NCBI RefSeq assembly: GCF_001747095.1
Contig: NZ_MDGP01000001.1
Coordinates: 3,765,001 to 3,829,000 of the forward strand
Origin: Roseivirga sp. 4D4
GTDB lineage: Bacteria; Bacteroidota; Bacteroidia; Cytophagales; Cyclobacteriaceae
DNA length: 64,000 nucleotides
Direction of reading: 5' to 3'
Part shown: positions 30,443 to 57,526 of the stretch, one piece after another
Position numbering within the stretch: position 1 is the stretch's first letter
Layout: each line of letters begins with the position of its first letter
Program-made: the position numbers and the translations under genes
The notes under the pieces: model-generated
What the model saw: the letters and a program-made list of their open reading frames with translations, nothing else
Databases searched by the model: none
Told to the model about the DNA's origin: nothing

Positions 30443-30459
30443 CAAAATTCTATACATCT
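30443..30459 (+). promoter_or_regulatory. copper-regulon box at the HMA-AraC regulator gene
   Basis: CAAAATTCTATACATCT, one of five close copies. Here it overlaps a probable -7 element (CATCTTTG, 30455-30462, 5 of 6 conserved positions), unlike the other copies, which lie 38-39 nt upstream of -7. This suggests the regulator represses its own gene. Confidence 0.6.
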
Positions 30460-30501
30460 TTGAATGGAAGAAATGGTTTTGTTGGGAAAGAAGATTATCT
30501 A

Positions 30502-31068
30502 ATGAGCAAAAATCTACATATCAAGAATATGGTTTGCCAACGTTGCATCATGACGGTGGAGTCAGACCTGAAATCTTTAGGTATTCCTTACACTGAGGTT
30601 CACCTCGGCCAAGTTAATTTGAAAGCCCCACTCACGATCAATGAGAAAAACTTATTGGTAGAAAGGCTTGTAAAACAGGGATTTGAGTTGCTTGAGGAGG
30701 GAAATAGTTCACTAATAGACAAGGTAAAGACGGTGATTATCGATATGATCCATCATCGGCAGGAGTTGCCAAGAATCAATTATTCAGAATATATATCGGA
30801 ACAGGTTCATAAAGACTATAGCTATTTGAGTAAGCTATTTTCCTCTGTAGAGGGAATTACCATTGAGAAATTCATCATCAAACAAAAAATCGAAAAGGTG
30901 AAAGAGCTATTGTCCTATGGCGAAAAGGCTTTCAAAGAGATAGCCTTCGATCTTGATTACAGCAGTGTACAACATCTTTCTAATCAATTTAAAAAAGAGA
31001 CAGGAATGACTCCCAGTCAGTTTAAACAAATGAGTAGGCCCGAACGAAAGCCACTCGATTCCCTATAG
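30502..31068 (+). CDS. AraC-family regulator with N-terminal HMA-like metal-sensing domain
   Basis: 188 residues from ATG 30502 (TTG 30460 would add a non-conserved tail and overlap the operator box). Residues 3-65 fold like a heavy-metal-associated domain: LHIKNMVCQRCIMTVESDLKSLGI with Cys12 and Cys15 in NMVCxRC, ending KQGFELLEE. Residues 105-175 are an AraC HTH (DYSYLSKLFSSVEGITIEKFIIKQKIEKVKELL; FKEIAFDLDYSSVQHLSNQFKKETG). The CxxC is the natural place for Cu(I). Adjacent to copA and probable autorepressor of its own promoter and activator of copper operons (inference). A longer paralogue is at 54683. Confidence 0.85.
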   Translation: MSKNLHIKNMVCQRCIMTVESDLKSLGIPYTEVHLGQVNLKAPLTINEKNLLVERLVKQGFELLEEGNSSLIDKVKTVIIDMIHHRQELPRINYSEYISEQVHKDYSYLSKLFSSVEGITIEKFIIKQKIEKVKELLSYGEKAFKEIAFDLDYSSVQHLSNQFKKETGMTPSQFKQMSRPERKPLDSL

Positions 31069-31069
31069 T

Positions 31070-31086
31070 TGAAATCTTGTTAAGCT
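31070..31086 (+). promoter_or_regulatory. degenerate copper-regulon box before copA (weak)
   Basis: TGAAATCTTGTTAAGCT matches the 17-bp box at 11 positions and is exactly 39 nt before GAGATTTG (31126-31133), a 5-of-6 -7 element. The spacing equals that of the strong sites, which is the only reason to list it. Confidence 0.3.
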
Positions 31087-31160
31087 TAGCCCAAATTATG
31101 TAATAGAAGTATCTGTTCAAGTTCGGAGATTTGCAGTATCACAAAGAAAATAGGTCAGAA

Positions 31161-33413
31161 ATGGATACAGCAATATTATCAAAAACAGACAGAGGAGATA
31201 GCCCTGCGGGTGGTATTAAAGAGTCTTACCCGGTAACGGGCATGACCTGTGCGGCTTGTGCCGCCAGTGTAGAATCAATCTTAAAGCATACCGAAGGAGT
31301 AACCGAGGCCAGTGTTAACTTTGCCTCAGGTTCAGTACTTGTAGAGTATGAAGATGTTTTAGAGCCTTCAGATTTGAGAGAAGCCCTTCAATCGGTCGGT
31401 TATGATTTGATCATAAATGTTGAAGATCCAGCTGAGGTTCAGCGGGAATTGCAGCATAAGCACTATCAAGATATAAAATGGAGGACTATATGGTCGGCCA
31501 TTTTAACGCTACCAGTATTTGTGCTGGGAATGTTCTTTATGAGTTGGGTACCAGGCCAGTGGATTTCTATGGCCTTTACAATTCCCATCCTTTTCTGGTT
31601 TGGAAGAAGCTTTTACATCAATGCCTGGAAACAGGCACGCCATAAGAAGGCCAACATGGATACTCTGGTTGCCCTCAGTACTGGAATTGCTTTTATATTC
31701 AGCGTTTTCAATACCATTTTTCCTGATTTCTGGCATGTCAGAGGGATTCATCCCCATGTCTATTATGAAGCTGCTACGGTAATTATCACCTTCATTTCAC
31801 TCGGTAAACTACTAGAAGAAAGAGCCAAGTCCAATACTTCATCAGCCATAAAGAAACTTATCGGTTTGCAACCGAAGACCCTGAAGGTGATACAAAACGG
31901 TGAAGAGGTAGAAATGCCAATTGCTGCGGTCCAAAAAGGCTTCACTATTGTAGTAAGACCAGGAGAAAAGATACCCGTTGATGGAGCGGTAGTTAGAGGC
32001 AGTTCCTTTGTGGATGAAAGTATGATAACCGGTGAGCCTGTTCCGGTTGAAAAAGTGGTGGGCTCAGAAGTCTTTGCCGGTACGGTGAACCAGAAGGGCA
32101 GCTTTCAGTTTACGGCCAAAAAGGTAGGTGATGAAACGCTGCTTTCTCAAATCATCAAAATGGTGCAGGAAGCCCAAGGTAGTAAAGCACCAGTACAAAA
32201 GTTGGTCGATAAGATAGCAGGTATCTTTGTGCCTATAGTGATTATTGTATCTATTGCAACGTTCAGTACCTGGATGCTGACTGGTGGCGATGACGCCTTT
32301 ACTCACGCCTTACTTACATCAGTTGCCGTACTCGTTATAGCCTGTCCCTGTGCATTAGGACTAGCCACTCCAACGGCTATTATGGTTGGGATAGGTAAAG
32401 GAGCTGAAAACAATATTCTTATAAAAGATGCAGAAAGCCTGGAGCTTGGTCATAAGACCAATGCTATAGTGCTTGACAAAACGGGTACAATAACAAAAGG
32501 CAAACCTATCGTAACAGCTTGGCACTGGGAGAATGAGAATAACTACTATAAAGAGATGCTTTTGGCGATTGAAACACAGTCGGAACACCCCTTGGCCGAT
32601 GCCGTGGTAGTAAAATTAAAGGAGGAAGGTTTCAAACCAGAGGCTATTGAGTCCTTTCAGAGCATTACTGGAATGGGTGTTGAGGCCCAATCTGTTGAAG
32701 GGGAAGTATTTTATGTAGGGAATCAACGTCTGTTAGCGAGCAAGAAGATCTCTGTTTCGACTGTTCAGGCAGATCAATCAAGTCATTGGAGAAGTCAAGG
32801 CAAAACCGTCATTTTCTTTGCAAGCAGTAGGAGTGTGCTCGCCATTTTGGCCATAGCTGATGAAATCAAAGAAAGTTCTGCTAAGGCAATTAAATCACTT
32901 CAGAACAGGGGTATAAGGGTCTATATGCTGACAGGTGACAATGAGCAAACAGCTAAAGCCGTGGCTGACAAGGTTGGTATTGAAAACTACAAAGCAGAAG
33001 TAATGCCCTCTGAGAAAGCAGAATTTGTAAAAGCATTGCAAGAGCAGGGTAAGGTCGTGGCAATGGTCGGTGACGGAATCAACGATTCACATGCGCTGGC
33101 CCAGGCTGATGTGAGCATTGCCATGGGGAAAGGTTCAGACATAGCCATGGACGTAGCCAAGATGACGCTCATTACTTCAGACCTGCTTGCAATTCCCAAG
33201 GCATTGAAGTTGTCAAGAAAAACAGTTCAAGGTATAAGGCAAAACCTGTTCTGGGCCTTTATCTACAACATTATCGGTATTCCTATTGCTGCTGGGGTGT
33301 TATACAGCTACAATGGGTTTTTGCTCGACCCTATGATTGCCGGGGCCGCTATGGCTTTTAGCTCGGTCTCTGTTGTGGCAAACAGCCTGAGGCTGAAAAC
33401 AGCCAAATTATAG
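31161..33413 (+). CDS. copA: copper-translocating P1B-1-type ATPase
   Basis: 750 residues from ATG 31161. Pumps Cu(I) from the cytosol. One N-terminal HMA domain with GMTCAACA (Cys30, Cys33); TM helices; phosphatase TGEPVP; transmembrane metal site [13 protein letters not shown] (CPC); phosphorylation [20 protein letters not shown] (HP motif); [22 protein letters not shown]. Downstream TM residues FIYNIIGIP and [14 protein letters not shown] give the Asn and Met-Ser-Ser-type signature of Cu(I) ATPases. Intact. Followed by a small HMA chaperone 28 bp later. TTG 31131 upstream is in frame but extends beyond the usual start. Confidence 0.95.
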
Positions 33414-33441
33414 TAAACATAAACCATCAAAACAGATCAAA

Positions 33442-33654
33442 ATGAATACGTTAAAGTTTAAATCAAATATCAATTGTACAGGATGCTTGTCAAAGGTCAC
33501 TCCATTTTTGGAGAAAGAAGAGAGTATTGAAAAATGGGAGGTTGATCTTGAAAACCCAAATAAGTTACTGACTATAGAGGGTAGTAGAGTCTCCGAGGAA
33601 AAAGTAATCTCTATCCTTAGCAAGGTTGGGTTCGATGCTCAACCCATTAGATAA
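33442..33654 (+). CDS. small HMA-domain copper chaperone
   Basis: 70 residues, a single HMA fold: KFKSNINCTGCLSKVTPFLEKEESIEKWEVDLENPNKLLTIEG...EEKVISILSKVGFDAQPI. The metal site is NCTGC; the usual MxCxxC Met is replaced by Asn-Ile, and Lys/Phe positions differ, yet both cysteines are kept. Delivers Cu(I) to the CopA N-terminal HMA domain in the cytosol, as CopZ does. Same strand, 28 bp after copA, surely one operon. Confidence 0.88.
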   Translation: MNTLKFKSNINCTGCLSKVTPFLEKEESIEKWEVDLENPNKLLTIEGSRVSEEKVISILSKVGFDAQPIR

Positions 33655-34049
33655 GTTACAGCCCGAAGAAAAATATCTAAGCAAATACTAATGAGATTCG
33701 TATTGCTGGATGTTTAGAATAAGTGCAGGAGTGTTGACCTTTTTCTAAGCTCGTTCTTGTCGTGCAAGCAATGGCGTTTTACCGCTGAACTCGAAGAAGG
33801 TCACATCCTTTTAAAGTAAAAAAGCAGGAACTCTGTAAACAGAAGCTTCTAGTACCTGCGAAAAAGAATATGAAAAGCACATTGATGGTAATGTTATCAG
33901 AGTGGTCTACTTCCTGCTTTTCCCTCTTCATATAAGGCCTGCCCAGGACAAAACTTCATACATCATAGTCGCAATGCTGTAACGACTATCAAGGGTTGGC
34001 TTAATACTTTTGAATTCAAGGAAAATCAACATCCCTCCTTGTTTTTAAA
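33655..34049. other. 395-bp intergenic region with stacked inverted repeats
   Basis: GCAGGAACT (33824-33832) can pair with AGTACCTGC (33851-33859, one mismatch), or the AAAGCAGGAA of 33821-33830 with TTCCTGCTTT (33911-33920, perfect), but not with both. A 21-codon frame MKSTLMVMLSEWSTSCFSLFI (33870-33935) lies between. This could be an attenuator-type leader, though no T-run terminator is seen. The copper box for the next gene is at 33949. Confidence 0.35.
33949..34012 (+). promoter_or_regulatory. copper-regulon box plus -7 element for the YceI/porin operon
   Basis: Box CAAAACTTCATACATCA (33949-33965), then 39 nt, then -7 element TACTTTTG (34005-34012, full TAnnTTTG consensus). No -33 TTTG at proper spacing, so an activator bound at the box (centre near -58) is likely. 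The ATG is 38 nt beyond the -7. Confidence 0.7.
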
Positions 34050-34658
34050 ATGGAGAAAACGCACATAGTGATTTGTCAGAAAAGGCAAAGAAGCTTCAAG
34101 AATTGGACTTATTTATTGATCACACTCCTCCTGGCTTTTGGAGAGTTAAAAGCACAGACAACTTTTTCCCTTACTCCTGATCAAAGCTTCAAAGTAGCAG
34201 GTACATCCACCTTGCATGATTGGGAAATGGTGTCAGATGAAGCTCTAGGCAACGCGAAAATCGTGTTGACAGATGGCCAGATCACCAGCATCCAATTACT
34301 TACTGTCGATTTGCCGGCTAATTCATTAAAGAGTGGTAAAAAGGCTATGGATAAGAATGCCTACAAAGCACTTGATACAAAGGAGTATCCTAACATACAT
34401 TTTGAATTGACTGAGTTTGAGACGTTGACAGATCAGCGAATAAAAGCGAAAGGCCGGCTTACTATAGCGGGGACAATTCAAGAGGTGCTGCTCGATGTCA
34501 GTTACGAGATTTCTGAAAATGCTATCCTTTTTGAGGCAGAGTTTCCCATCACTTTCACACAATTTAAAATAGAGCCTCCGAAGGCCCTGTTAGGAACCAT
34601 TAAAACGGGTGATGAGCTACAAATTTCCTTTCGAACAACCTTTAAATCAGTAAACTAA
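34050..34658 (+). CDS. YceI-family periplasmic lipid-binding-like protein
   Basis: 202 residues with a long signal peptide (N-terminal basic tail, hydrophobic FKNWTYLLITLLLAFGELKAQ). The YceI barrel is plain: SFKVAGTSTLHDWEM, SGKKAMDKNAYKALDTKEYPNIHFELTEFE, IKAKGRLTIAGTIQEVLLDV, FTQFKIEPPKALLGTIKTGDELQISF. Members bind isoprenoid or other hydrophobic ligands in the periplasm, and Bacteroidota variants are often copper-induced. First gene after a copper box, 13 bp before the porin. Second, more divergent YceI at 36189. Confidence 0.9.
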   Translation: MEKTHIVICQKRQRSFKNWTYLLITLLLAFGELKAQTTFSLTPDQSFKVAGTSTLHDWEMVSDEALGNAKIVLTDGQITSIQLLTVDLPANSLKSGKKAMDKNAYKALDTKEYPNIHFELTEFETLTDQRIKAKGRLTIAGTIQEVLLDVSYEISENAILFEAEFPITFTQFKIEPPKALLGTIKTGDELQISFRTTFKSVN

Positions 34659-34671
34659 AATTTGAGCAATT

Positions 34672-35940
34672 ATGAAAAAAATGAATATCGGTAATCAATT
34701 GATGTTGTTGGCCTTTATGTTATTGGCATCAACTACTATATATGCACAGCAACCTGCTTTACAGTACTTTCGATCCAATGACAAAGGAGGTCTCAATGTA
34801 TTCGAAACCCCTAAAAAAGATACCATAAAATTCGAAGGGTTAAAAGTTCGAATAGGGGGTGATTTTGCCTTACAATTTCAAGGTCTTTCCCAGTCAAATG
34901 ATATGGTAGGTGACATTTTGGTAGACCTTTCATCTAATTTTAATCTTCCTACGGCCAACTTAAATATTGATGTTCAATTGGCCGATGGATTGCGGATGCA
35001 TTTACGAAACTACTTATCCTCCAGAAATCACAATGAAGGATGGGTAAAAGGAGGGTATCTGCAATTGGATAAGCTGGATTTCATTCAGGAAGGTTTTTTA
35101 AGTGAGTTTATGAAATTCGCCACCTTAAGATTTGGTATGGACGAAATTAATTATGGAGATACCCACTTTCGAAGATCCGATAACGCACGGGCTATATTCA
35201 ATCCTTTTGTTGGAAATTATATTATGGACGCTTTTACAACCGAACCCTTTGCAGAGTTAACACTGCAAAAGTCAGGTTTGATTGGTGTAGTTGGAGTAAG
35301 TAATGGCCGCTTAAATCAAGACCCCATTTCAGGCGATGATGGAATCGCCTTTTTTGCTAAGCTAGGGTACGACAATCAAATAAATGAAGACCTAAGAATT
35401 AGGTTAACAGGCTCAGTTTACAGCAGTTCAGATAAAAGTACCAGAGACTATTTGTACAATGGTGATCGGGCCGGGGCTCGCTATTACAGTGTGCTTGAGG
35501 GAGTCAATGATACCCGTGTCAGTGCATTCCTGCCGCGATTAAACCCAGGATTTGGTTATCAGACTGCCTATCAAATTAATCCATTTGTAAAAATGAGAGG
35601 GCTTGAATTTTTCGGAGTATTTGAAGTGGCCAACAATGGTGATGATACCGTAGGTGGAGGATACACCCAGCTGGGAGCAGAGGCCATTTACCGCTTTGGT
35701 ATTACTGAGCAGCTCTATATCGGTGGACGTTACAATTCGGTAACCGGTGAATCTTCGGATGCTACCCCTTCAGTAGATATCAACAGACTAAACATTGGTG
35801 GTGGCTGGTATATGACCAAAAATGTGTTGACTAAACTCGAATATGTGAGCCAGAAATATGATGGAAATGGGTTTAACGGCTCTAAATTTCAAGGAGCAGA
35901 ATTTGATGGTATTGTAATCGAAGCCGTAATCAGCTTTTAA
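34672..35940 (+). CDS. outer-membrane porin-like beta-barrel
   Basis: 422 residues with signal peptide (MNIGNQLMLLAFMLLASTTIYAQ). The mature chain has many amphipathic strands (GGDFALQFQGLSQS, LNIDVQLADGLRMHLRNYLS, RIRLTGSVYSS, LYIGGRYNSVTGE) and ends GIVIEAVISF with terminal Phe. Resembles porins of the phosphate/carbohydrate-selective (OprP-like) type found with YceI in Bacteroidota copper islands. Substrate not known; altered uptake or export of metal is possible. A clear terminator follows. Confidence 0.8.
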   Translation: MKKMNIGNQLMLLAFMLLASTTIYAQQPALQYFRSNDKGGLNVFETPKKDTIKFEGLKVRIGGDFALQFQGLSQSNDMVGDILVDLSSNFNLPTANLNIDVQLADGLRMHLRNYLSSRNHNEGWVKGGYLQLDKLDFIQEGFLSEFMKFATLRFGMDEINYGDTHFRRSDNARAIFNPFVGNYIMDAFTTEPFAELTLQKSGLIGVVGVSNGRLNQDPISGDDGIAFFAKLGYDNQINEDLRIRLTGSVYSSSDKSTRDYLYNGDRAGARYYSVLEGVNDTRVSAFLPRLNPGFGYQTAYQINPFVKMRGLEFFGVFEVANNGDDTVGGGYTQLGAEAIYRFGITEQLYIGGRYNSVTGESSDATPSVDINRLNIGGGWYMTKNVLTKLEYVSQKYDGNGFNGSKFQGAEFDGIVIEAVISF

Positions 35941-35951
35941 GAAAATGTTAT

Positions 35952-35985: not shown

Positions 35986-36008
35986 ATTACGCTTATGTTC
36001 ACTTGTAT

Positions 36009-36866: not shown

Positions 36867-36930
36867 CAAAATCTTATACATCTAAAACCAAATATTGAAC
36901 AAAGCCAGTAGGCCATTTTCTATACATTTG
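36867..36930 (+). promoter_or_regulatory. copper-regulon box plus -7 element for the HYC/cus operon
   Basis: Box CAAAATCTTATACATCT (36867-36883), 39 nt, -7 element TACATTTG (36923-36930). The nearest TTG (36895-36897) is too far (25 nt) for a -33, so activation from the box is likely. Confidence 0.7.
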
Positions 36931-36961: not shown

Positions 36962-37342
36962 ATGAAAAAAATCAGTCGCATATTGCTCGTAATTCTGTTG
37001 ATTACCATTTCCATGGGAGTGACGATTAACAAGCACTTCTGTGGAGAAATGTTGGAGAGCATAGCGATCTATCAACAAGTCGACTCCTGCTGCGAAGGAG
37101 CTGATATGCCTAAAGGCTGTTGTCATGATGAACAGGAAGCATACCAGCTGGATGAATATCAGGTTAACAGCTTTAATTTCATTTTTAAGGCTCCTCAGCT
37201 TGTAAACCCTATCGCATTTGCTGATTTGCAAATGCTGTTCAGGGTTATGCAAATAGATCATTCTGATTCTTTTTACACTGCAGAACCGCCTCCATTAGCT
37301 GAATCCGACCTGCTGGTAGAGATTCAGACATTCCTTCTTTAA
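36962..37342 (+). CDS. HYC_CC_PP family exported protein
   Basis: 126 residues. Signal peptide/anchor at residues 5-22 (SRILLVILLITISMGVTINK) followed by the three family motifs: HFC (variant of HYC), a Cys cluster DSCCEGADMPKGCCHDE, and PPP near the C-terminus (FYTAEPPPLAESDLL). These Bacteroidota proteins sit next to RND heavy-metal efflux genes and probably bind Cu or Ag in the periplasm. It directly follows the copper box, 95 bp before cusA. A His-rich relative is at 54054. Confidence 0.82.
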   Translation: MKKISRILLVILLITISMGVTINKHFCGEMLESIAIYQQVDSCCEGADMPKGCCHDEQEAYQLDEYQVNSFNFIFKAPQLVNPIAFADLQMLFRVMQIDHSDSFYTAEPPPLAESDLLVEIQTFLL

Positions 37343-37437: not shown

Positions 37438-40400
37438 ATGTTAAATAAAACAATCAAATTCTTTTTAGAGAATAAGCTGGTAACAGTATTGCTGTTACTC
37501 ATATTCATCGGCTGGGGAGTTTCCACTGCGCCATTCAATTGGAAGATGGATTTCTTTCCCAGAGACCCGGTGGCGGTAGACGCCATACCGGATATTGGTG
37601 AAAACCAGCAAATCGTATTTACCACCTGGATGGGGCGGTCTCCTCAAGATATTGAAGACCAGATCTCTTATCCATTGACCACGGCACTCCTGGGGATTCC
37701 AGGGGTTAAAACAATCCGTAGTAACTCTATTTTCGGACTGTCGAGTATCTATATCATTTTTGAAGAAGATATAGAATTTTACTGGAGTAGATCCAGAATT
37801 CTGGAGAAGTTAAACTCCCTACCGGCAGGGATTTTGCCCAATGGCGTTCAACCAGCACTTGGACCGGATGCAACAGCATTGGGTCAGATCTTCTGGTACA
37901 CACTGGAAGGGCGAAATCCGGAGACTGGAGAGCCCACCGGGGGCTGGGACCCACAAGAGCTTCGCACCATTCAGGACTATTATGTAGGCTATTCTCTCAC
38001 TTCGGCAAAGGGTGTTTCTGAAGTTGCGGCTATCGGAGGATTTATCAAAGAGTATCAGGTCGATATAGACCCTGTAGCCATGAAAGAGAACAATGTCACT
38101 GTTTCTCAGATTATGAACGCAGTCAGGAAGAGCAACCTCGATGTCGGGGCCCGAACCATTGAATTCAATAGAGCGGAATACTTGGTAAGGGGGCTCGGAT
38201 ATATTGAAAACCTGGAAGACTTAGAGAAGGCGGTAGTGGTAGCCAATGATAACACTCCCATTCGCATTAAAGATGTGGCAGTAGTCAATTTTGGGCCTGC
38301 CACAAGGCGCGGTGGTTTAGATAAGGAGGGTGCTGAAGCTACCGGAGCTGTAGTGGTATCCAGGTACGGAGCCAACCCACTGGAAGTCATTGAAAACGTC
38401 AAGGAAAAGATAAAGGAAATAGCTCCCGGACTTCCTTCCAAAACATTGGCAGACGGTACAGTGTCTAAGGTGACCATTGTCCCGTTTTACGATCGTACGG
38501 GGCTGATCAAAGAAACCCTGGGTACCTTGGAAAAGGCGCTAACCGAAGAAATTCTGATTAGTATCATTGTGGTGATCATTGTGGTGATGAACCTTCGTGC
38601 CTCAGTGATCATCTCTACACTTCTTCCTTTAGGTGTATTGATGACATTTATTGTCATGAGGTATGCCGGGGTAGATGCAAACATTGTGGCACTTTCGGGT
38701 ATTGCCATTGCGATTGGAGTCATGGTGGATGTGGGGGTAGTTTTCACGGAAAACATTATTCGGCACCTTGATAAGCCTGAAAATAAAGGCATATCCAACA
38801 AAGAAAAGTTGGAGGTGATCTATCGAGCGACTACAGAAGTAGCTACCGCTGTGATTACAGCCCTCACCACTACGGTAGTGAGTTTTCTACCCGTTTTTGC
38901 TATGGAGGCGGCAGAAGGCAAACTCTTTAAGCCGTTGGCCTTTACTAAAACCTTTGCTATGCTTGCTGCCCTGTTTATAGGCCTGGCGGTTATCCCAGCT
39001 TTAGCACATTGGTTGTTTTCCATTAGGTTAGGCAAAGAACGGACCGTAAGAATTTGGAACACAGCACTTATTGCTCTCGGAATCTTCATACTCATTTACT
39101 CATCCAGTTGGATGGGAATTATTTTGATACTACTAGGGGCGAATAAGGTATCGGAAAAATGGATATCCAAAAAATGGCGGTGGGTCTCCGAGTACCTTAA
39201 TGTTGCCATTATCATCGTATCACTTGCCATTTTACTAACACGAGAGTGGTTACCCTTAGGTGCACAAAACAGCTTGCTGACCAACTTTACTTTTGTGGGT
39301 GCGGTGATTGTTTTGGTGCTTGGATCTTTGCTGCTCCTGGTAAAATTTTATACCCCAATTCTGAGATGGTGTCTCAACAATAAATGGAAATTCCTGGCAC
39401 TCCCGGTTTTCGTGCTGTTGTTCGGGATACTCTCATGGACAGGGTTTGAAAGTATGTTTGGTTGGGCAGGCCATACAGCTGAAAAAGCAGGTTGGGAGGT
39501 TCGTCAAACAAGTCTTTGGCAATCACTTAACAAAAACTTCCCGGGCACTGGTAAAGAATTTATGCCAGCGCTCGATGAGGGTTCATATTTATTGATGCCC
39601 ACCACTATGGCTCATTCCGGAGTAGAGGAAAATGTTGATGTCATCCGAAAAGTAGATGCCTATGTATCCGCTATTCCAGAGGTAGATCAGGTAGTGGGCA
39701 AGTGGGGTCGCGTCAACTCAGCATTAGACCCTGCACCCATTTCCATGTTTGAGAATACCATCAATTATTTGCCCGAGTATATGGTGAATGAAAATGGCAA
39801 CCGTATGCGGTTTAAGGTAGACAAGGAAGGGGCCTATGTATTAAAGGATGGTAGTTCTTATAATCCAGAGAACGGTTTTAAAAAGGTTTCCAAAGAAGAG
39901 CTGGTTGAAGATAAAAACGGTGAATATTTCCGGCAATGGCGACCAGAGATTCAGTCTCCAAATGATATTTGGGATGAGATCATCAGAGTGGCCAAAGTAC
40001 CTGGTATGACTTCGGCTCCAAAACTGCAGCCAATTCAAACACGGCTCATTATGCTTTCAACAGGCATGCGGGCGCCAATAGGTATCAAGGTTTATGGGCC
40101 TGACCTACAAACCATAGAGACCGTTGGTTTGGAGTTAGAGCGTATTCTCCAGCAGGTACCCAGTGTTCAGGCTTCATCGGTATTTGCCGATCGAATTGTT
40201 GGAAAACCGTATCTCGAATTCAAAGTGGATCGAGACGAAATAGCACGCTATGGCCTTACGGTAGAAGACTTTCAAAAGTCAGTGGAAGTGGCCATTGGGG
40301 GTGTAAAACTTACGTCTACTGTAGAGGGCAGAGAGAGATTTCCCGTACGTGTACGCTATGCCCGTGAATTCCGGGACAATCCAGAGGACATGAAGAAGGT

Positions 40401-41262
40401 CTTAATCCCCACGCCATCCGGTACTCAGGTTCCTTTAGGTGAACTGGCTAAAGTCACTTATAGACGTGGACCGCAGGTGATCAAAAGTGAAGATACTTTC
40501 CTGGTAGGCTATGTGATCTTTGACAAAAAAGAAGGCACTGCAGAGGTTGATGTAGTCGAAGAAGCACAACGATTTATAGATGCTAAGATCGCATCCGGTG
40601 AATTTACAGTACCGGCTGGGGTCAATTTCAAGTTTACTGGAAACTATGAAAACCAGATCAGAGCAACCAAAAGACTGGCTATAGTAGTACCAGTATGTCT
40701 TTTGGCAATTTTTCTGATTCTGTACTTTCAGTTCGGAAATGTTTCTACCACTGCTATGGTATTCTCAGGAGTATTTGTGGCGTTTTCAGGAGGCTTTTTG
40801 CTGATCTGGCTATATGGACAGGAATGGTTTCTCAATTTTTCCATGGTGGGAATTAACATGAGAGACCTCTTTCAGGTAGATACAGTCAATCTAAGTGTAG
40901 CGGTATGGGTGGGATTCATAGCCTTGTTTGGAGTAGCCTCAGACAATGGTGTGATTATGGCTACTTATCTTAAGCAAATCTTCGAGGAGCGAAAACCGTC
41001 CGATGTTGCCGCTGTGAAAGAAGCTGTGCTTCATGCGGGTAAGCTAAGAATCAGACCGGCTATTATGACCACAGCCACAACACTGATAGCCTTACTTCCG
41101 ATTTTCACCTCAACTGGTAAAGGATCTGATATTATGGTGCCTATGGCGATCCCCACGTTTGGAGGAATGTTGGTTCAGGCCATCACCGTGTTCGTTGTGC
41201 CCGTGCTCTACTGCATGTGGCAAGAGGGCAGAGTGAAGCGATTAATGAGAAAGGAGGCCTAA
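37438..41262 (+). CDS. cusA: CusA/CzcA-type heavy-metal efflux RND pump, inner membrane
   Basis: 1274 residues, about 200 longer than enteric CusA. Twelve-TM RND layout: TM1 after residue 10, GVMVDVGVVFTENIIRHL (proton relay) near 425, and the C-terminal bundle with FGVASDNGVIMATYL. Extra length is mostly an added hydrophobic block after the first bundle (IILILLGANKVSEKWISKKW ... LILVLGSLLLL, about 535-640) and a periplasmic insert around 780-840. The Cu-transport methionines are plausible in EFMPALDEGSYLLMPTTMAHSG and RLIMLSTGMRAPIG. Exports Cu(I)/Ag(I) with CusC and CusB, which follow. Confidence 0.92.
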   Translation: MLNKTIKFFLENKLVTVLLLLIFIGWGVSTAPFNWKMDFFPRDPVAVDAIPDIGENQQIVFTTWMGRSPQDIEDQISYPLTTALLGIPGVKTIRSNSIFGLSSIYIIFEEDIEFYWSRSRILEKLNSLPAGILPNGVQPALGPDATALGQIFWYTLEGRNPETGEPTGGWDPQELRTIQDYYVGYSLTSAKGVSEVAAIGGFIKEYQVDIDPVAMKENNVTVSQIMNAVRKSNLDVGARTIEFNRAEYLVRGLGYIENLEDLEKAVVVANDNTPIRIKDVAVVNFGPATRRGGLDKEGAEATGAVVVSRYGANPLEVIENVKEKIKEIAPGLPSKTLADGTVSKVTIVPFYDRTGLIKETLGTLEKALTEEILISIIVVIIVVMNLRASVIISTLLPLGVLMTFIVMRYAGVDANIVALSGIAIAIGVMVDVGVVFTENIIRHLDKPENKGISNKEKLEVIYRATTEVATAVITALTTTVVSFLPVFAMEAAEGKLFKPLAFTKTFAMLAALFIGLAVIPALAHWLFSIRLGKERTVRIWNTALIALGIFILIYSSSWMGIILILLGANKVSEKWISKKWRWVSEYLNVAIIIVSLAILLTREWLPLGAQNSLLTNFTFVGAVIVLVLGSLLLLVKFYTPILRWCLNNKWKFLALPVFVLLFGILSWTGFESMFGWAGHTAEKAGWEVRQTSLWQSLNKNFPGTGKEFMPALDEGSYLLMPTTMAHSGVEENVDVIRKVDAYVSAIPEVDQVVGKWGRVNSALDPAPISMFENTINYLPEYMVNENGNRMRFKVDKEGAYVLKDGSSYNPENGFKKVSKEELVEDKNGEYFRQWRPEIQSPNDIWDEIIRVAKVPGMTSAPKLQPIQTRLIMLSTGMRAPIGIKVYGPDLQTIETVGLELERILQQVPSVQASSVFADRIVGKPYLEFKVDRDEIARYGLTVEDFQKSVEVAIGGVKLTSTVEGRERFPVRVRYAREFRDNPEDMKKVLIPTPSGTQVPLGELAKVTYRRGPQVIKSEDTFLVGYVIFDKKEGTAEVDVVEEAQRFIDAKIASGEFTVPAGVNFKFTGNYENQIRATKRLAIVVPVCLLAIFLILYFQFGNVSTTAMVFSGVFVAFSGGFLLIWLYGQEWFLNFSMVGINMRDLFQVDTVNLSVAVWVGFIALFGVASDNGVIMATYLKQIFEERKPSDVAAVKEAVLHAGKLRIRPAIMTTATTLIALLPIFTSTGKGSDIMVPMAIPTFGGMLVQAITVFVVPVLYCMWQEGRVKRLMRKEA

Positions 41263-41263: not shown

Positions 41264-42517
41264 ATGAATATGAAAAAGAACCTACTACAATTATTCGTTT
41301 TGTTCACACTCATGCTTTCGCCCAATGTGGTGAATGCCCAAAGCGAACTGGATAGTTACGTGCAAATTGCGGGAGAAAACAACCCTCAGCTTAAATCCTT
41401 GTTTCAGCAGTATATGGCAGCCCTGGAACGATTGCCACAGGCCAAATCATTGCCTGACCCTACGGTTGCATTTGGAGTTTTTGTAAGTCCGGTCGAAACC
41501 CGGGTTGGTGCTCAAAGGGCCAATATTTCGATTTCGCAAATGTTCCCATGGTTTGGCCAATTGAAAGCGCAGGAAAGCGTTGTGGCCGATCTTGCCAAAG
41601 CAAGATACCAAGAGTTCGAAGATGCAAAGAATAAGCTGCAGTTCGAAGTAAGGTCTACTTACAACAACTTGTACGTCTTGCACTCGGCAATTGATATTAC
41701 TCAGGAGAATATCGTACTACTGAACAGCTTCAAAGAATTGGCCAAGGTCAGGTTTGAATCAGGTAAAGGGAGTTTTGTCAACGTCTTGAGAATAGACATG
41801 GAAGTGTTGGAGTTGGATTCACAACTTGAATTACTCAGAGACAGTGAGACTCCCATTCTTTCCAGATTCAAAGAACTGCTCAACACTGAGCTTCCTTCGG
41901 TGATTGCCTTTCCGGATACACTTTGGAGCGATGACTTGGAGACTGATCGTGCCTTTTTGAATGACTCTCTTCTGGCAAATAACCCAGTCCTGAGTAAGTA
42001 TGATTATGAGATGTCATCATTGACTAATCAGGCCAGAGTGGCAGAGTTAAAGGGAAAGCCGTCATTCAGTGTTGGGTTGAGCTATATAAATATTGCCAAG
42101 CGTGATGGCGTGGATGTTTCAGGCAATGGAAGAGACGCCATTGCCTTGCCTCAGGTAGGTATCAGAATACCCCTTTACCGCAAGAAATATCAGGCTATGG
42201 TTAAGGAGAAGCAGATTTTGAGAGAGTCTGTGCGATTGCAAAAGGATAATACAATCAATCGCTTGCAGACCAATCTTGAAGAGTGGATAAAGGACTATCG
42301 CGATGCAGTAAGGCGCGAAGAGCTATACGAGCAATTGAGTGGGATAGCCCGTCAGTCGCTGAATTTACTGGTATCGGAATATACCACGGAAGGGTCAGAC
42401 TTCGAGGAAGTACTGAGAATGGATCGCCAACTACTGAAATATGAGTTGGAACTGGAAAAAGCAAGGGCCGACAGAAATACGACTGTAGCCTACATCAATT
42501 ACTTAATCGGAAAATAA
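41264..42517 (+). CDS. cusC: TolC-family outer membrane efflux protein
   Basis: 417 residues, signal peptide MKKNLLQLFVLFTLMLSPNVVNAQ. Two repeats of the TolC helical barrel: QLKSLFQQYMAALERLPQAKSLPDPTVAFGVFVSP and LSKYDYEMSSLTNQARVAELKGKPSFSVGLSYINIAK; helical QNEKL-type stretches with long coiled coils and the ending EKARADRNTTVAYINYLIG fit the family. Forms the exit duct with CusA. Starts 1 bp after the cusA stop, so strictly coupled. Symbol cusC given for function, not identity. Confidence 0.9.
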   Translation: MNMKKNLLQLFVLFTLMLSPNVVNAQSELDSYVQIAGENNPQLKSLFQQYMAALERLPQAKSLPDPTVAFGVFVSPVETRVGAQRANISISQMFPWFGQLKAQESVVADLAKARYQEFEDAKNKLQFEVRSTYNNLYVLHSAIDITQENIVLLNSFKELAKVRFESGKGSFVNVLRIDMEVLELDSQLELLRDSETPILSRFKELLNTELPSVIAFPDTLWSDDLETDRAFLNDSLLANNPVLSKYDYEMSSLTNQARVAELKGKPSFSVGLSYINIAKRDGVDVSGNGRDAIALPQVGIRIPLYRKKYQAMVKEKQILRESVRLQKDNTINRLQTNLEEWIKDYRDAVRREELYEQLSGIARQSLNLLVSEYTTEGSDFEEVLRMDRQLLKYELELEKARADRNTTVAYINYLIGK

Positions 42518-51943: not shown

Positions 51944-52330
51944 ATGAAGTATTACCACGAAAAGATTTTGGAAAATGTGTCCTTTGATGAAGCCATCGAG
52001 AAAATAACGTCTTCTCTTAAAAGTGAAGGGTTTGGCATTCTCACAGAGATAGATGTACAGGCTACGATGAAGAAAAAGCTGGATGAGGATTTCAGACCTT
52101 ACAGGATACTGGGAGCCTGCAACCCTCCTTACGCTTTCAAAGCACTTCAGGCCGAAGAAAAAATTGGTACTATGCTGCCTTGCAATGTAATTGTTCAACA
52201 GGTGGAAAAAGGTATAGAAGTAGCTGCCGTTGATCCTATGGCATCCATGCTGGCAGTAGAAAATTCAAAATTAGAGAGTATTGCCAGCGAAATACAAAGA
52301 AAGTTGAAGAACGCAATCAATAATCTCTAA
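51944..52330 (+). CDS. DUF302 protein
   Basis: 128 residues, no signal: MKYYHEKILENVSFDEAIEKITSSLKSEGFGILTEIDVQATMKKKLDEDFRPYRILGACNPPYAFKALQAEEKIGTMLPCNVIVQQVEKGIEVAAVDPMASM. The full DUF302 fold with ILGACNP and PCN is present. DUF302 proteins are small and often found near copper/redox genes; function unproven. 163 bp after the oxidase. Confidence 0.9.
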   Translation: MKYYHEKILENVSFDEAIEKITSSLKSEGFGILTEIDVQATMKKKLDEDFRPYRILGACNPPYAFKALQAEEKIGTMLPCNVIVQQVEKGIEVAAVDPMASMLAVENSKLESIASEIQRKLKNAINNL

Positions 52331-52444
52331 CGGTTAATTATGATTAAGGAAGAGAGCAGAGCCATGTATAACTATAAATAAAGTATGGAAACAGCATGAG
52401 ATTCCCAAGGGATACTGCCCCGTAACTTTTGAAGAACTGGTCTT

Positions 52445-52573
52445 ATGATGGCTTACAAAATTATTCAAGAAGTGGAAGAGGACGGCATTTTAGAAAAATC
52501 TGTCATAAACCTGATGTCTACGGTCTACTCCACAAATGACAAAAAAGTTAAAAGAGGTTGCAAAAAAGTCTAA
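52445..52573 (+). CDS. possible 42-residue protein
   Basis: ATG 52445 to TAA 52573, a charged MMAYKIIQEVEEDGILEKS... with a basic tail ending KRGCKKV. Fills part of a 276-bp gap before the permease. No homology recognised; may be chance. Confidence 0.3.
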   Translation: MMAYKIIQEVEEDGILEKSVINLMSTVYSTNDKKVKRGCKKV

Positions 52574-52606
52574 TCCGAATCATAAATTCAATACTCGAAC
52601 GAAACT

Positions 52607-53905: not shown

Positions 53906-53987
53906 TGAATTAAAAAAAAGTTCAGGTATATGTGACGAGATGTTCCCAAAACTGATGTAAGTCATAAAAAGTAGACCTACAAATTAG

Positions 53988-53995
53988 TATTTTTG
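53988..53995 (+). promoter_or_regulatory. -7 element for the His-rich HYC gene
   Basis: TATTTTTG matches TAnnTTTG. No copper box is found at the expected 38-39 nt upstream. Confidence 0.45.
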
Positions 53996-54010
53996 TTTAG
54001 TGATATCCTC

Positions 54011-54030
54011 AGAGCCTCTCAGAGCCTCTC
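54011..54030 (+). repeat. tandem decamer in the leader of the His-rich gene
   Basis: AGAGCCTCTC occurs twice in a row between the -7 element and the ATG, inside the likely 5' UTR. Confidence 0.5.
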
Positions 54031-54053
54031 TGAGTAGGACAACAGAAAAAGTC

Positions 54054-54539
54054 ATGATCAACCAATTGAACAAGATAAAACTTGGAATAGCCTTGAGTTT
54101 GGTGCTCAGCTTTTCAGGTATGTTCATTTGTGATGCTCTATGTGATGTAGGCATTATCGAGTTTTCTGCGGTTCATGATCATTTTCAAAAGGGCGCAGAT
54201 CATCATTCTCAGGATCATGAAGGAGATCATCACCATACACAACCCATGGTGTCCGATCACCACCACGATCAGTCATCAGGTCATGATCATGATGGCTCTG
54301 AAGAAGATGAGTGTTGTGAGAATTTAACTACTCCATTTTTCGATCAACTCATAAAGCACAAGGCACAGTCTTTTGACTTCAATAAGGTTGAAAAAATAAC
54401 CCTTGTTACTCACTATGATGGTTATGAGGCCTTCATTTACAATAGCCGAAAGGTAGATAATTTATTTCTCTATTCTAACCTACCGCCCCCACTTCCGGGC
54501 GATCAAATACGGATAAGGTTCCAGTCATTTTTGCTTTAA
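54054..54539 (+). CDS. His-rich HYC_CC_PP-type exported protein
   Basis: 161 residues from ATG 54054. Signal helix (IKLGIALSLVLSFSGMFICDALC) followed by a long His/Asp tract (HDHFQKGADHHSQDHEGDHHHTQPMVSDHHHDQSSGHDHD), then DECCENLTTPFFDQL, and the PPPLPG motif near the C-terminus (LYSNLPPPLPGDQIRIRFQSFLL). Shares the C-C and P-P-P order of the 36962 protein, with a much longer His insert; both likely bind periplasmic copper. An upstream GTG at 54000 was rejected because it lies before the -7 start point. Confidence 0.75.
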   Translation: MINQLNKIKLGIALSLVLSFSGMFICDALCDVGIIEFSAVHDHFQKGADHHSQDHEGDHHHTQPMVSDHHHDQSSGHDHDGSEEDECCENLTTPFFDQLIKHKAQSFDFNKVEKITLVTHYDGYEAFIYNSRKVDNLFLYSNLPPPLPGDQIRIRFQSFLL

Positions 54540-54682
54540 AATGTGAGCACATGCCCATTTAGCGATCAGCACGTCCAGGTGCTGACACTGCAATGTCGTC
54601 ATGTGTCATTTCTATTTGGTGTGGTCTCGTCTGACCAGGCCATCAATTAACTCACGTTTTAATCGATCTAAAAGCAAAAGTG

Positions 54683-55477
54683 ATGAAATCAATCAGTTTA
54701 CATATAAAGAATATGGTTTGTCCCAGGTGCATTTTCGTCATAGAAAATGAATTGAAGGAGTTAGGAGCTAATGTGTTGAGCATTGAGTTGGGTCATGCCA
54801 CCATCACTGCTCCGGTGTCACTGACTTTGCCCACAATTGAGTCAAGGCTGGAGCAATTCGGTTTCGAATTGCTGGAAAACAAAGAAGACATGCTGGTAGA
54901 GGAGATCAAGATTGCTATTGGTCACTACGCTCAACTGCAAGAGGAATCATCTACTGAGGTGACCCTGTCAGAATTTCTATCCAGAGAATTGGGCAAAAAC
55001 TATAACTATCTCAGTAAGCTCTTTTCTAAACACGAGTCTCAGACAATAGAAAGACGTTTTATTGAGATTCGGATTGAAAGAGTGAAACAGCTTCTGGATT
55101 ATGAAGAGCTCACGTTAAGTGAGATTGCCATTAAACTGGGTTATAGCAGTGTTCATTATTTATCCAACCAGTTCAAAAAGATTACGGGCCGTTCTGTATC
55201 TGAATACAAAGATCATGTCAAATCACTGCATCACCGGTACAGTTCATTGTCTCAGGCATTGAATGACTTAAAGTCTAAGGGGTTTGTTCATGATTTCAGT
55301 AGGGAAGACAGTCAATTGCACTGTCAACAACTAGGAACACTTTACGATCCAAGGAGTCTGAAGATGGAAGAAGTTTACAGGTTTAAAGAAGCCACCAGTC
55401 GACATGGTAAGTCAGCGGTCTTTGCCATTGATACAGGTAATAATGTTAAAGGTGTTTTGATTGAAAGCAATTTATGA
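54683..55477 (+). CDS. HMA-AraC regulator fused to a C-terminal small domain
   Basis: 264 residues from ATG 54683. Residues 1-66: HMA-like SISLHIKNMVCPRCIFVIENELKEL with Cys13 and Cys16; 105-180: AraC HTH (NYNYLSKLFSKHESQTIERRFIEIRIERVKQLL; LSEIAIKLGYSSVHYLSNQFKKITG). Residues 190-264 (LSQALNDLKSKGFVHDFS ... LGTLYDPRSLKMEEVYRFKEATSRHGKSAVFAIDTGNNVKGVLIES) match the short Bacteroidota protein mis-named phosphoribosylpyrophosphate synthetase. The whole is thus a three-part fusion. Paralogue of 30502; probable second copper regulator. Confidence 0.85.
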   Translation: MKSISLHIKNMVCPRCIFVIENELKELGANVLSIELGHATITAPVSLTLPTIESRLEQFGFELLENKEDMLVEEIKIAIGHYAQLQEESSTEVTLSEFLSRELGKNYNYLSKLFSKHESQTIERRFIEIRIERVKQLLDYEELTLSEIAIKLGYSSVHYLSNQFKKITGRSVSEYKDHVKSLHHRYSSLSQALNDLKSKGFVHDFSREDSQLHCQQLGTLYDPRSLKMEEVYRFKEATSRHGKSAVFAIDTGNNVKGVLIESNL

Positions 55478-55519
55478 ACGTTTGAGGCAAAGCAAGTGCG
55501 GAATAGTGCATATCAAAAA

Positions 55520-55536
55520 CAAAATTTTATACAGGG
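55520..55536 (+). promoter_or_regulatory. partial copper-regulon box before the SnoaL-like gene
   Basis: CAAAATTTTATACAGGG keeps 14 of 17 positions of the box but loses TC at the end. No -7 element at 38-39 nt. Weaker member. Confidence 0.35.
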
Positions 55537-55644
55537 TTGGGTATCTACCGGCATAATTTGCTTAACAAAACTACGTCTCCCTGGTTTCAAACTGATTTGA
55601 CCGGGGTTTGGCTGAAACAATAGAGCAACTTAACCAATAAGACT

Positions 55645-56106
55645 ATGCAAAAAAGATTAATGATTTTTCTGTGCCTATCCTTCGTTGTGTTTTTTTCAAC
55701 GAACGTTCAGGCGCAAAGGAGTGAGAAAAAAGCCGTGGAACAAGTATTGAAAGCTTACAAAGACGGTATTGAAAAATTAAGTACTGAAGGTCTTTCAGAT
55801 CTTTTCACGAAGGATTCAGAGGTTTTTGAATCCGGGGGAGTCGAGGGCAATTTTACTCATTACCTTGAGCATCATTTAGGACCTGAGCTAGGTCATTTTA
55901 AATCCTTTGACTTCTCTGATCATAAAATTGAAACCAAAATTGATCTGCCCTACGCATTTACTACTGAAACCTATATATACACCATTGTTTTGGCAGAAGG
56001 GGATAGAACCATCCAACGTAAAGGAGTAGCCACTTCGGTGCTCAAAAAAATTGATGGGAATTGGAAAATTATGAAAACACATACCTCCGCCCGAAACGCT
56101 AAGTAA
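55645..56106 (+). CDS. SnoaL-like exported protein
   Basis: 153 residues. Signal peptide (MIFLCLSFVVFFSTNVQAQ) then a SnoaL/DUF4440 alpha+beta cone: EKKAVEQVLKAYKDGIEKLSTEGLSDLFTKDSEVFESGGVEGNFTHYLEHHLGPELGHFKSF ... DGNWKIMKTHTSARN. The family is a generic ligand-binding fold; copper link only by position. Two more genes follow in the same direction. Confidence 0.85.
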   Translation: MQKRLMIFLCLSFVVFFSTNVQAQRSEKKAVEQVLKAYKDGIEKLSTEGLSDLFTKDSEVFESGGVEGNFTHYLEHHLGPELGHFKSFDFSDHKIETKIDLPYAFTTETYIYTIVLAEGDRTIQRKGVATSVLKKIDGNWKIMKTHTSARNAK

Positions 56107-56138
56107 CGGGACACGAATTGTCGTAGATAACTGATATT

Positions 56139-56588
56139 ATGCAATTAGTACCTGAGTGGGCACCAAACATACATCCTTTGGTAGTCCACTTTCCCATCGC
56201 CTTGTTGTCACTAGCTGTGGTTGTTTCTTTGGTTGAAGTGTTTTTCAAACCAGAGTGGGTCAACCGCTCCAGGCTATGGTTGTATATCCTGGGCAGTCTT
56301 GGTTTGGTAGTGACTTTGCTCAGCGGCAGAGCAGCAGCGGATTCTGTCAGTCCACCCTTTAGCGCTGAAATGACCTTGAGCAGTCATTCCGACAGTGCTT
56401 ACACCGCACTATGGTATTTCCTGGCTTTCACTCTCATTCAATTGGTCCTGCCCAGATTTATGAAGGTGGACAAAACCTGGGTTAGACTTGTCTATTTTTT
56501 GATTGCTTGTTTCGGTTTATATCTATTGATCACAACCGGAGAATTAGGTGCAAAACTGGTTTATAAATATGGAGTAGGAACTCCTTGA
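56139..56588 (+). CDS. DUF2231 membrane protein
   Basis: 149 residues with four hydrophobic helices; starts WAPNIHPLVVHFPIALLSLAVVVSLVEVFF, the DUF2231 signature with NIHPLVVHFPIAL. Two conserved His suggest heme or metal. The family sits with copper and cytochrome genes in many Bacteroidota. Stop overlaps the region of the next gene's leader. Confidence 0.88.
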   Translation: MQLVPEWAPNIHPLVVHFPIALLSLAVVVSLVEVFFKPEWVNRSRLWLYILGSLGLVVTLLSGRAAADSVSPPFSAEMTLSSHSDSAYTALWYFLAFTLIQLVLPRFMKVDKTWVRLVYFLIACFGLYLLITTGELGAKLVYKYGVGTP

Positions 56589-56614
56589 TTAAATACGAAA
56601 TAATAGAAAAGAAC

Positions 56615-57337
56615 ATGAGAAATAACCCCTTTACATATTTGTTAATGTTAATGATGGTCTTGTCGTTGGGTGCTTGCAGTCAGTCTGGAAAAGAAGCAAA
56701 AGAAACAGACAATACTGAAGTGCAGGCAAGAGGTCAGGAAGAATCTTCTGCCGATCATGATCATCATGCAGCAGCCTTGAGCAAAGAAGAAACTACCATT
56801 TGGAAACCCAGCGGAGAGGGAGAGGAATTGATTGGCAGGGATTTTCATTTTATCGCAGGTAATGTAGACCAAGTGAGACCTGAGGTATTGTTTGAAGGTG
56901 GAGAAGATATTTTGCAGTTGACTACAAAAGATGTTCGACAAGCTGCTTTCGTCTTTCACAATAAAATGGGCAATGTTGGTATTGCTGTGACACTCAAACG
57001 CTCGAATTTTGAAGGCAATCTGAAGATCATACATCATGCTCAAGACGGTAACACCTATGAGTTTGTCTCAATAGATGAGAAAGACATGAGCCTGGGCCGT
57101 TATGTTGAAGGTAAAGAAGATCTTTTTGATAGAAAAAAGTTTGAGGCTGATCAAAGTGATTGGATAACCATCAGGGTATCTGCGGCTGGCACCCATTTCA
57201 AAGGGTACCTGGGAGATGAAAATATAACCCATGGCCATGGGGATGAGTTAGAGGCAGGCTATGTAGGTATTATGCTTGAAGGTACTGGATCAGTCAGTAT
57301 TAAATCGATTGAGGTTACACCTCTGGAAGCAGAATAG
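56615..57337 (+). CDS. LamG/3-keto-disaccharide-hydrolase-like lipoprotein
   Basis: 240 residues from ATG 56615. Lipobox LGAC near 22, His/Glu/Gln-rich linker (DHDHHAAALSKEE), then a jelly-roll domain (WKPSGEGEELIGRDFHFIAGN, AAFVFHNKMGNVGIAVTLKRSNFEGNLKIIHHAQDGNTYEFVSID, EAGYVGIMLEGTGSVSIKSIEV). Resembles the DUF1080-type beta sandwich. Carbohydrate or metal binding uncertain. A strong terminator follows at 57434. Confidence 0.7.
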   Translation: MRNNPFTYLLMLMMVLSLGACSQSGKEAKETDNTEVQARGQEESSADHDHHAAALSKEETTIWKPSGEGEELIGRDFHFIAGNVDQVRPEVLFEGGEDILQLTTKDVRQAAFVFHNKMGNVGIAVTLKRSNFEGNLKIIHHAQDGNTYEFVSIDEKDMSLGRYVEGKEDLFDRKKFEADQSDWITIRVSAAGTHFKGYLGDENITHGHGDELEAGYVGIMLEGTGSVSIKSIEVTPLEAE

Positions 57338-57433
57338 GACTTTTTCTTTTAAAAAATTATTCAAGTGGCTTGATATAAATTCACCTAAACACGAGGAGGG
57401 AGCAATATTACCGATGGTGGGTTATGCTCCCAG

Positions 57434-57461
57434 GGGAGTTGAGTAATCAACTCCCTTTTTT
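57434..57461 (+). terminator. Rho-independent terminator
   Basis: GGGAGTTGA (57434-57442) and TCAACTCCC (57447-57455), loop GTAA, followed by six T. Separates the lipoprotein operon from the cytochrome operon. Confidence 0.85.
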
Positions 57462-57463
57462 GT

Positions 57464-57526
57464 TAAAATATCATACATCATAAACATAATAATTACCCTG
57501 TTTTAGGGATCCTGAGCCTACTTTTA
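57464..57526 (+). promoter_or_regulatory. copper-regulon box plus -7 element for the cytochrome operon
   Basis: Box TAAAATATCATACATCA (57464-57480), 38 nt, then TACTTTTA (57519-57526, 5 of 6). Box begins 2 bp after the upstream terminator; the ATG is 26 nt beyond the -7. Confidence 0.65.

Follow-up and report, generated by a model that had tools for sequence, protein, structure and literature searches.

Which protein reads the 17-bp box CAAAAYHYYATACATCW that recurs before copper genes of Roseivirga sp. 4D4, and is this box a complete regulatory site? The boxes lie in a stretch of 64,000 nucleotides (contig NZ_MDGP01000001.1, positions 3,765,001 to 3,829,000; hereafter the window, whose numbering is used throughout), together with two regulators that combine an HMA-like domain with an AraC-type domain, HMA-AraC1 (188 aa, 30502..31068) and HMA-AraC2 (264 aa, 54683..55477), referred to below as AraC1 and AraC2. 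These genes and the half-sites, -7 elements and operons described below for the window are on the + strand. Our analysis shows that the boxes are half-sites of a paired site that precedes copper-defence genes in many Bacteroidota, and we regard it as very probable that these tandem sites are operators of HMA-AraC proteins acting as copper-switched transcription activators.

The box and its tandem arrangement

An earlier note on this DNA had described the box at 30443, 33949, 36867 and 57464. The first three copies are exact, and the one at 57464 has one mismatch (first base T). The distances claimed from the end of the box to the start of the -7 element were confirmed, with 39 nt at 33949, 39 nt at 36867 and 38 nt at 57464, and they exceed chance as proposed: the complete genome (4.58 Mb) has three instances of the box followed after 36-40 nt by TAnnTTT, exactly at these three sites, and the control has none. 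The exact 16-mer core, a pattern derived from these very sites, occurs four times in the genome, always in the window (control 0). The mismatched box alone is barely above chance. With up to three mismatches it was found 13 times in the window against 8.4 ± 2.6 expected, a number reached by 5 of 100 shuffles, and with up to two mismatches at 185 places in the genome against 146 control places.

When 15 sites, five of them from the window, were aligned, their self-similarity peaked at an offset of 21 bp, with 8.5 of 17 matches compared to 4.5-6.2 at the other offsets between 14 and 33. The full unit, called the module here, consists of two direct 17-bp half-sites 21 bp apart, followed after 17-18 nt by (T/G/C)AnnTTTG. 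The half-site consensus is CAAAATYTYATAAAYCW / CAAAATTNYRTAACA, and the AraC2-type spelling is ATACATC; in genome G035, for example, the module reads CAAAATCTTATAAATCT TACC CAAAATCCTGTAAAACT, 18 nt, CAATTTTG. The box is present as described, but it is one half of a direct repeat with a period of 21 bp and not the whole unit. One half is the stronger in each promoter of the window, the distal half at 33949, 36867 and 57464 and the proximal half at 30443, 31091 and 55520, and for this reason the rule of 38-39 nt fits only three copies. The copies at 30443 and 55520 (the latter with three mismatches to the box) are real, but they are promoter-proximal halves to which this spacing does not apply. 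The partial copy noted at 31070 proved to be part of a real module before copA (TGAAATCTTGTTAAGCT/CCAAATTATGTAATAGA, 18 nt, then GAGATTTG).

The note had placed an activator site near -58 of these promoters. If the -7 element occupies -12 to -5, as given for F. psychrophilum (PMC9723704), the proximal half covers -47 to -30 and overlies the -33 position. An activator-type site upstream of the copper operons is retained, but the single centre near -58 gives way to a pair spanning approximately -68 to -30, with the distal half centred near -60. Transcription starts are predicted at about 31138, 34017, 36935 and 57531, some 12 nt from the first base of the respective -7 elements. A proper -33 element is lacking, as had been stated, since TTTG was not found between -38 and -30 at any of the six modules of the window.

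A first matrix (half-site, half-site, -7), trained on 12 sites, detected 107 places of at least 20 bits in the window and the fetched loci, of which 95 had not been used for training, and one in the reversed sequence. A second matrix was held out for the window, being built on 92 distinct modules from elsewhere. It yielded six modules above 10 bits, at 36867 (31.8 bits), 33949 (29.4), 30422 (24.6), 31070 (24.5), 55499 (16.4) and 57464 (10.5), while 16 further gene starts of the window that we examined all scored below 0. Among 20 nulls the highest score was 12.1 bits, a value exceeded by five of the six modules. The module at 57464 is within the null range and not significant by score alone, its proximal half being poor (-7.7 bits); it is backed by a strong distal half, by the genome-wide match of box, gap and -7 element, and by a module before the homologous cytochrome gene in genome G310 (L257:11933, 22.6 bits). 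Exact TAnnTTTG elements stand at 33949 and 36867, and near matches at 31070 and 57464; the element at 55499 is weak, and none is in register at 30422.

The first module of the window precedes AraC1, with its distal half at 30422..30438 (CATAATTTCATTAACCT), its proximal half, an exact box, at 30443..30459, and no good -7 element 17-18 nt further on (TTTGTTGG); in loci L283, L284 and L285 the AraC1 gene is likewise preceded by a module in this position. The copA promoter follows, with the former partial copy as distal half (31070..31086), a proximal half recognized by the held-out matrix (31091..31107) and, by matrix and promoter inspection, the -7 element at 31126..31133. Many relatives carry a module at the same place after the regulator stop. 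Behind it lie a CopA-type copper P-type ATPase (31161..33413; NCBIfam TIGR01511, 612.8 bits, cut-off 397) and a small, copper chaperone-like HMA protein (33442..33654; Pfam HMA, E 6.5e-5, 23.7 bits, just under the cut-off of 24.8). The module of the YceI-porin operon comprises the box at 33949..33965, the matrix-assigned proximal half CGCAATGCTGTAACGAC (33970..33986) and the -7 element TACTTTTG (34005..34012), followed by a YceI-like protein (34050..34658; Pfam YceI, E 9.6e-17) and a protein that reads as porin-like in translation and has no Pfam or NCBIfam match (34672..35940). The HYC-cus operon is arranged likewise, with the box at 36867..36883, the matrix-assigned proximal half CCAAATATTGAACAAAG at 36888..36904 and the -7 element TACATTTG at 36923..36930. 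Its first gene encodes a protein of the HYC_CC_PP (HYC) family (36962..37342; NCBIfam NF047658, E 3.3e-16), and CusA-TolC-CusB type efflux genes follow (37438-41262, 41264-42517 and 42528-44363), named from their translations and with homologues beside the regulators of relatives.

Two further modules lie behind AraC2. The distal half at 55499..55515 is weak (2.7 bits); the proximal half at 55520..55536, recognized by box match and matrix, had been noted as a partial copy, and the -7-like element TAATTTGC (55554..55561) is weak as well. This operon contains a DUF4440/SnoaL-like gene, a DUF2231 gene and a third gene (55645..57337; Pfam matches for the first two). The last module is composed of the mismatched box at 57464..57480, the poor proximal half at 57485..57501 and the -7 element TACTTTTA at 57519..57526, the last two -7 assignments again resting on matrix and promoter inspection. 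According to the family scan, the genes behind it (57552..59964) are a cytochrome c gene, an outer-membrane-like gene with no passing family match and two more small c-type cytochrome genes, one of which is just below the Pfam cut-off.

Modules at copper genes of other Bacteroidota

The architecture of the site is conserved in relatives. We examined two sets of loci (L061-120 and L121-200) that had been fetched by protein only and by no motif, along with further fetched loci. Pairs of near-consensus words (regular expression) were found in 55 distinct cases at a spacing of 21 and in three cases in total at the other spacings from 13 to 60, four of the loci in this count (L270, L272, L274, L275) having been fetched by the 21-bp pattern itself; in the reversed control there were two at spacing 21 and three elsewhere. 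The element (T/G/C)AnnTTTG followed 49 of the 55 pairs at a gap of 18 (44) or 17 nt (5), and one pair at 25 nt. Looser pairs at spacing 21 numbered 27 in L061-120 and 80 in L121-200, while other spacings averaged 2.8 and 3.9, and a -7 element stood 17-18 nt behind 16 of the 27 and 71 of the 80. A module was carried by 68 of 80 loci in one regulator-locus set and by 31 of 60 in another; among the 11 loci retrieved through AraC2 matches, 6 had one.

Without the tandem model these loci had at first seemed contrary evidence, as 2.47 Mb of L061-L200 contain no exact box and three with one mismatch. Two other approaches were abandoned: a de novo enrichment of gapped words (reversed-sequence null) was dominated by codon bias and by the selection of extreme words, and a single CAAAATNCTGTAACA-like word gave small counts in relatives. 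In 151 kb of control loci one module was found (19.3 bits, with a poor distal half); it lies inside a coding frame of L007 resembling threonyl-tRNA synthetase and is due to chance.

We also searched overlapping sets of 241 genomes of the order and 375 genomes of the phylum for the exact tandem pattern, with no -7 element required. It was found at six and two places, respectively, one of them common to both, and the control had none in either set. All seven distinct places are near copA, HYC or HMA genes: before copA in G035, G049, G232 and G238, before a CopZ-like gene and copA in G420, before a HYC gene and cusA in G198, and in G081 directly after an HMA-AraC gene, followed at some distance by an HMA gene. 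This strict form is rare, as the two phylum genomes in 375 illustrate, whereas the looser form occurs in the 80-locus set, which spans several orders, although some of the 80 loci are metagenome bins and possibly mislabelled.

Box, gap and -7 element together were found at six places in five of 390 genomes of the order (control 2), so that the enrichment at copper loci of relatives that the note had proposed to look for was indeed observed. The window accounts for two of these places. Another is found in G004, where it precedes a small HMA gene, and G337, G310 and G204 contribute a single one apiece; the last three are the genomes whose AraC2 relatives are the best, and the chance of hitting all three is 4e-7. 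The single exact box performed far worse. It was found at 34 places in 29 of the 390 genomes against 15 control places, roughly twofold above control and largely noise, and was rejected as a marker. Four of the 31 places outside the genome itself are at copper/AraC2 loci (L204, L207, L213, L230); the remainder were inspected where loci had been fetched, by tblastn of the window proteins over a range of about 3 kb, and in two wider stretches, L267 (G181) and L268 (G002), no copper gene was found.

The modules are concentrated at copper promoters. Counting modules of at least 18 bits within 350 nt upstream, with identical open reading frames (ORFs) counted once, we found a module upstream of 63 of 94 CopA-like and 17 of 27 HYC-like ORFs, compared to 25 of 1953 unannotated ORFs. 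It was also present upstream of 5 of 135 AraC1-type ORFs and one of 75 CusB ORFs. As most of these loci had contributed to matrix training, the count was repeated with a split: with the 81 modules of L121-200 for training and the unshared ORFs of L061-120 for testing, 11 of 22 CopA-like ORFs had a module compared to 5 of 879 unannotated ones. The box could also be a chance occurrence, or a feature that promoters of these genomes share in general; the weak enrichment of the mismatched box and the 34 against 15 places of the single exact box count for this. However, the tandem and box-gap-7 patterns have zero to two control matches and lie mostly at copper genes, and just 25 of the 1953 unannotated ORFs have a module; this explanation, already disfavoured by the controls, is very improbable.

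The distribution of modules also bears on further genes. The 17 of 27 relatives of the first HYC protein that lie behind a module suggest a copper role for the uncharacterised HYC_CC_PP family, and the box before 57552-59964, together with the homologue at L257:11933, indicates that electron transport genes may be part of the copper response. The window encodes two HYC_CC_PP proteins, at 36962-37342 and at 54048-54539, the second below the family cut-off. At AraC2 loci, the high-scoring modules L255:12978, L257:8703 and L258:605 precede a 70-residue protein (MHWFEGHY...WDIPGQ), SHOCT-like by reading. Directly upstream of the first regulator of the island lies an AbiEi/AbiEii type IV toxin-antitoxin pair (28744-30415; Pfam AbiEi_3; PADLOC AbiEi and AbiEii).

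The HMA-AraC proteins and their possible action

Both regulators are two-domain proteins. Their AraC-type domains, of the two-HTH form characteristic of the AraC/XylS family, match HTH_18 with 60.2 (E 2.4e-16) and 53.5 bits (E 2.9e-14), above the cut-off of 33.6. A fold model of AraC1 (predicted local distance difference test 89.3) has a babbab domain at residues 4-64 (E4-8 H13-25 E30-34 E37-40 H46-58 E62-64) with the CxxC at 12-15, a linker helix and an AraC domain of six helices (94-175). When a profile built from 41 sequences was compared with the PDB, it matched both AraC-type domains and the metal-binding domains of copper ATPases; residues 3-60 or 3-66 match ATP7B (7xuk, 2ew9) and 1p6t ('potential copper-transporting ATPase') with E-values from 1.7e-6 to 9e-4. 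Based on the fold and these profile matches, the predicted N-terminal domain is called HMA-like. AraC2 shares the HMA-like CxxC region and the AraC domain and has a C-terminal extension of about 84 residues (55223-55477), for which no Pfam match and no homologue were found; by ORF length, four of seven AraC2-class relatives have such an extension and three do not. Among plasmids, 27 records match AraC2 (tblastn), none covering 80%.

C12 is present in 122 and C15 in all of the 142 AraC1-class proteins (including that of the window), and both in all eight AraC2-class proteins. Where the first cysteine of the CxxC is kept, 103 of 133 loci have a module, compared to 4 of 19 where it is Ser (Fisher 3e-6). 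The proteins with Ser (20 of 142; L063, L065, L073, L075, L077 and others) form a subfamily in which the second cysteine is invariant and which is mostly without a module. This subfamily may sense another metal or signal.

In the mechanism that we propose, binding of copper to the CxxC in the HMA-like domain would switch the protein to another form, whose AraC domains would occupy both half-sites and bring in RNA polymerase, in the manner of AraC at araI1-araI2. The spacing of 21 bp would correspond to two helix turns, and the proximal half would take the place of the -33 element. We also considered that the tandem site is read by another, unlinked copper-stress regulator, such as a two-component response regulator, with HMA-AraC as a mere neighbour. 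The binding of HMA-AraC to the module is a prediction, and some modules (in L266, L270 and L274) lie in fetched stretches that contain no HMA-AraC gene. However, G232 and G198, where modules have no regulator in view, carry HMA-AraC elsewhere, as does G004, and module presence tracks the CxxC of HMA-AraC. Furthermore, L121-200 contain 49 distinct modules placed between -60 and +300 nt relative to a regulator stop, and 34 of them begin between -10 and +4 of that stop; direct repeats at an average distance of 21 bp are the form predicted for Bacteroides AraC-type regulators (PMC3878776). An unlinked regulator is improbable.

Slightly less probable still is that HMA-AraC acts as a repressor on the tandem site and is released by copper. 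Some one-component copper sensors, namely CsoR and CopY, are derepressors, which we counted for this possibility, and the copy before AraC1 has no good -7 element in the standard position. Against it, no -33 element is present at the promoter position that the proximal half covers, and the gap to the -7 element is nearly constant at 17-18 nt, the layout of an activator that replaces a missing upstream element.

Several points speak against activation by copper-bound HMA-AraC. We infer HMA-AraC as binder, copper as signal and activation as effect from sequence comparison; while the copper regulon linked to HMA-AraC that the note had proposed is supported by the relatives, the link to the regulator is still correlative. 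The loci were gathered because the regulator is present, absence elsewhere having been checked by strict patterns and the 151 kb of other loci only, and 12 of 80 and 29 of 60 loci of the two regulator sets show no module. Matrix-based spacing counts are inflated, since the training modules were chosen with spacing 21, and the further HMA/HYC-motif ORFs, 18 of 25 of which have a module upstream, form a class defined after looking. The N-terminal piece of the regulator scores 13.6 bits with Pfam HMA, below the cut-off of 24.8. In the window, the multicopper oxidase, the DUF302 gene and the AraC2 operon are without a module, and the missing good -7 element before AraC1 means that regulation there could be repression. 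In relatives, a module was found upstream of only one of 15 multicopper oxidase and 5 of 40 small HMA ORFs, and directly upstream of none of 52 CusA, 33 TolC and 18 AraC2-type ORFs. In the inspected loci of relatives, cus genes usually lie downstream of copA, HMA or HYC genes of the same orientation, so that a promoter further upstream probably drives them.

If the HMA-AraC proteins are the activators, the two regulators of the window could differ in the sites they read. In the numbering of AraC1, residue 157 lies in the second recognition helix; it is His in AraC2 and Gln in the AraC1 of the window. The ATACATC spelling goes with AraC2-type (His157) regulators, and sites beside AraC1-type relatives are mostly ATAAA. 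Position 13 of the distal half is A in 104 of 106 modules of loci with Ala157 only, C in 8 of 9 modules of loci with His157 only, and A, C and T in seven, two and one of ten modules of loci with Gln157 only; in the proximal half, A is retained at 8 of the 9 His157 sites.

In three other genomes (G337, G310 and G204), modules flank an AraC1-type gene on both sides; its identity to the AraC1 of the window is about 50%. The module before it contains a TACATCA half, which is distal there and proximal in the window, and the one behind it has a GTAAAAC/ATAAAAC-type distal half and precedes a copA 81-82% identical to that of the window. Modules on both sides of AraC1 in the window and three other genomes suggest a two-tier circuit. 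Tentatively, and in a form that may well not hold, AraC2 would read ATACATC and activate the cus, YceI-porin and cytochrome operons as well as the AraC1 gene, and AraC1 would read ATAAA-type sites and activate copA from the module behind the AraC1 stop codon. Such a cascade from AraC2 via AraC1 to copA is possible; it is weakened by the fact that His157 is essentially one lineage, so that the events are not independent, by the poor -7 element of the AraC1 promoter in all four genomes and by the mixed sites of Gln157 relatives of the AraC1 of the window.

Relation to known systems

In the top-ranked open-licence literature on copper, AraC and Bacteroidota, we found no description of an AraC-type one-component copper regulon, of this regulator class or of its operator. 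Most likely, the sensor is of an undescribed kind, an AraC-type activator with a copper-binding domain. If this is true, it represents a widespread class of copper sensor together with its operator, and HYC_CC_PP proteins, small HMA proteins and a c-type cytochrome operon fall under copper control. The 21-bp tandem with its fixed gap to the -7 element would then be a usable search pattern, and the covariation of His/Ala157 with C/A at position 13 a testable specificity rule.

CueR, CsoR, CopY and CusRS control copper export, chaperones, cus-type efflux or multicopper oxidases, and control of such functions is predicted here as well, but by a different protein family; to our knowledge, the operators of these regulators are not of the tandem direct form. 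The N-terminal domain resembles the HMA domains of copper P-type ATPases by profile but is, unlike them, fused to a DNA-binding domain. With regard to the operator, the module resembles E. coli araBAD, where AraC binds the tandem direct 17-bp half-sites araI1-araI2 with a period of 21 bp through an AraC-type DNA-binding domain, the proximal half lying at the upstream promoter element. It differs from araBAD in that an HMA-like CxxC domain replaces the arabinose-binding domain, and in its half-site sequence, its Bacteroidota -7 element and its copper targets. A similar combination of an AraC-type domain and 21-bp direct repeats is found in the hybrid two-component system (HTCS) regulons of Bacteroides, for which PMC3878776 gives predicted direct repeats at an average distance of 21 bp, read as monomers on one face of the DNA two turns apart. 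HTCS regulators, which act in polysaccharide use, combine a kinase with a periplasmic sensor, while the predicted regulator described here is a one-component protein of 188-264 aa at copper genes.

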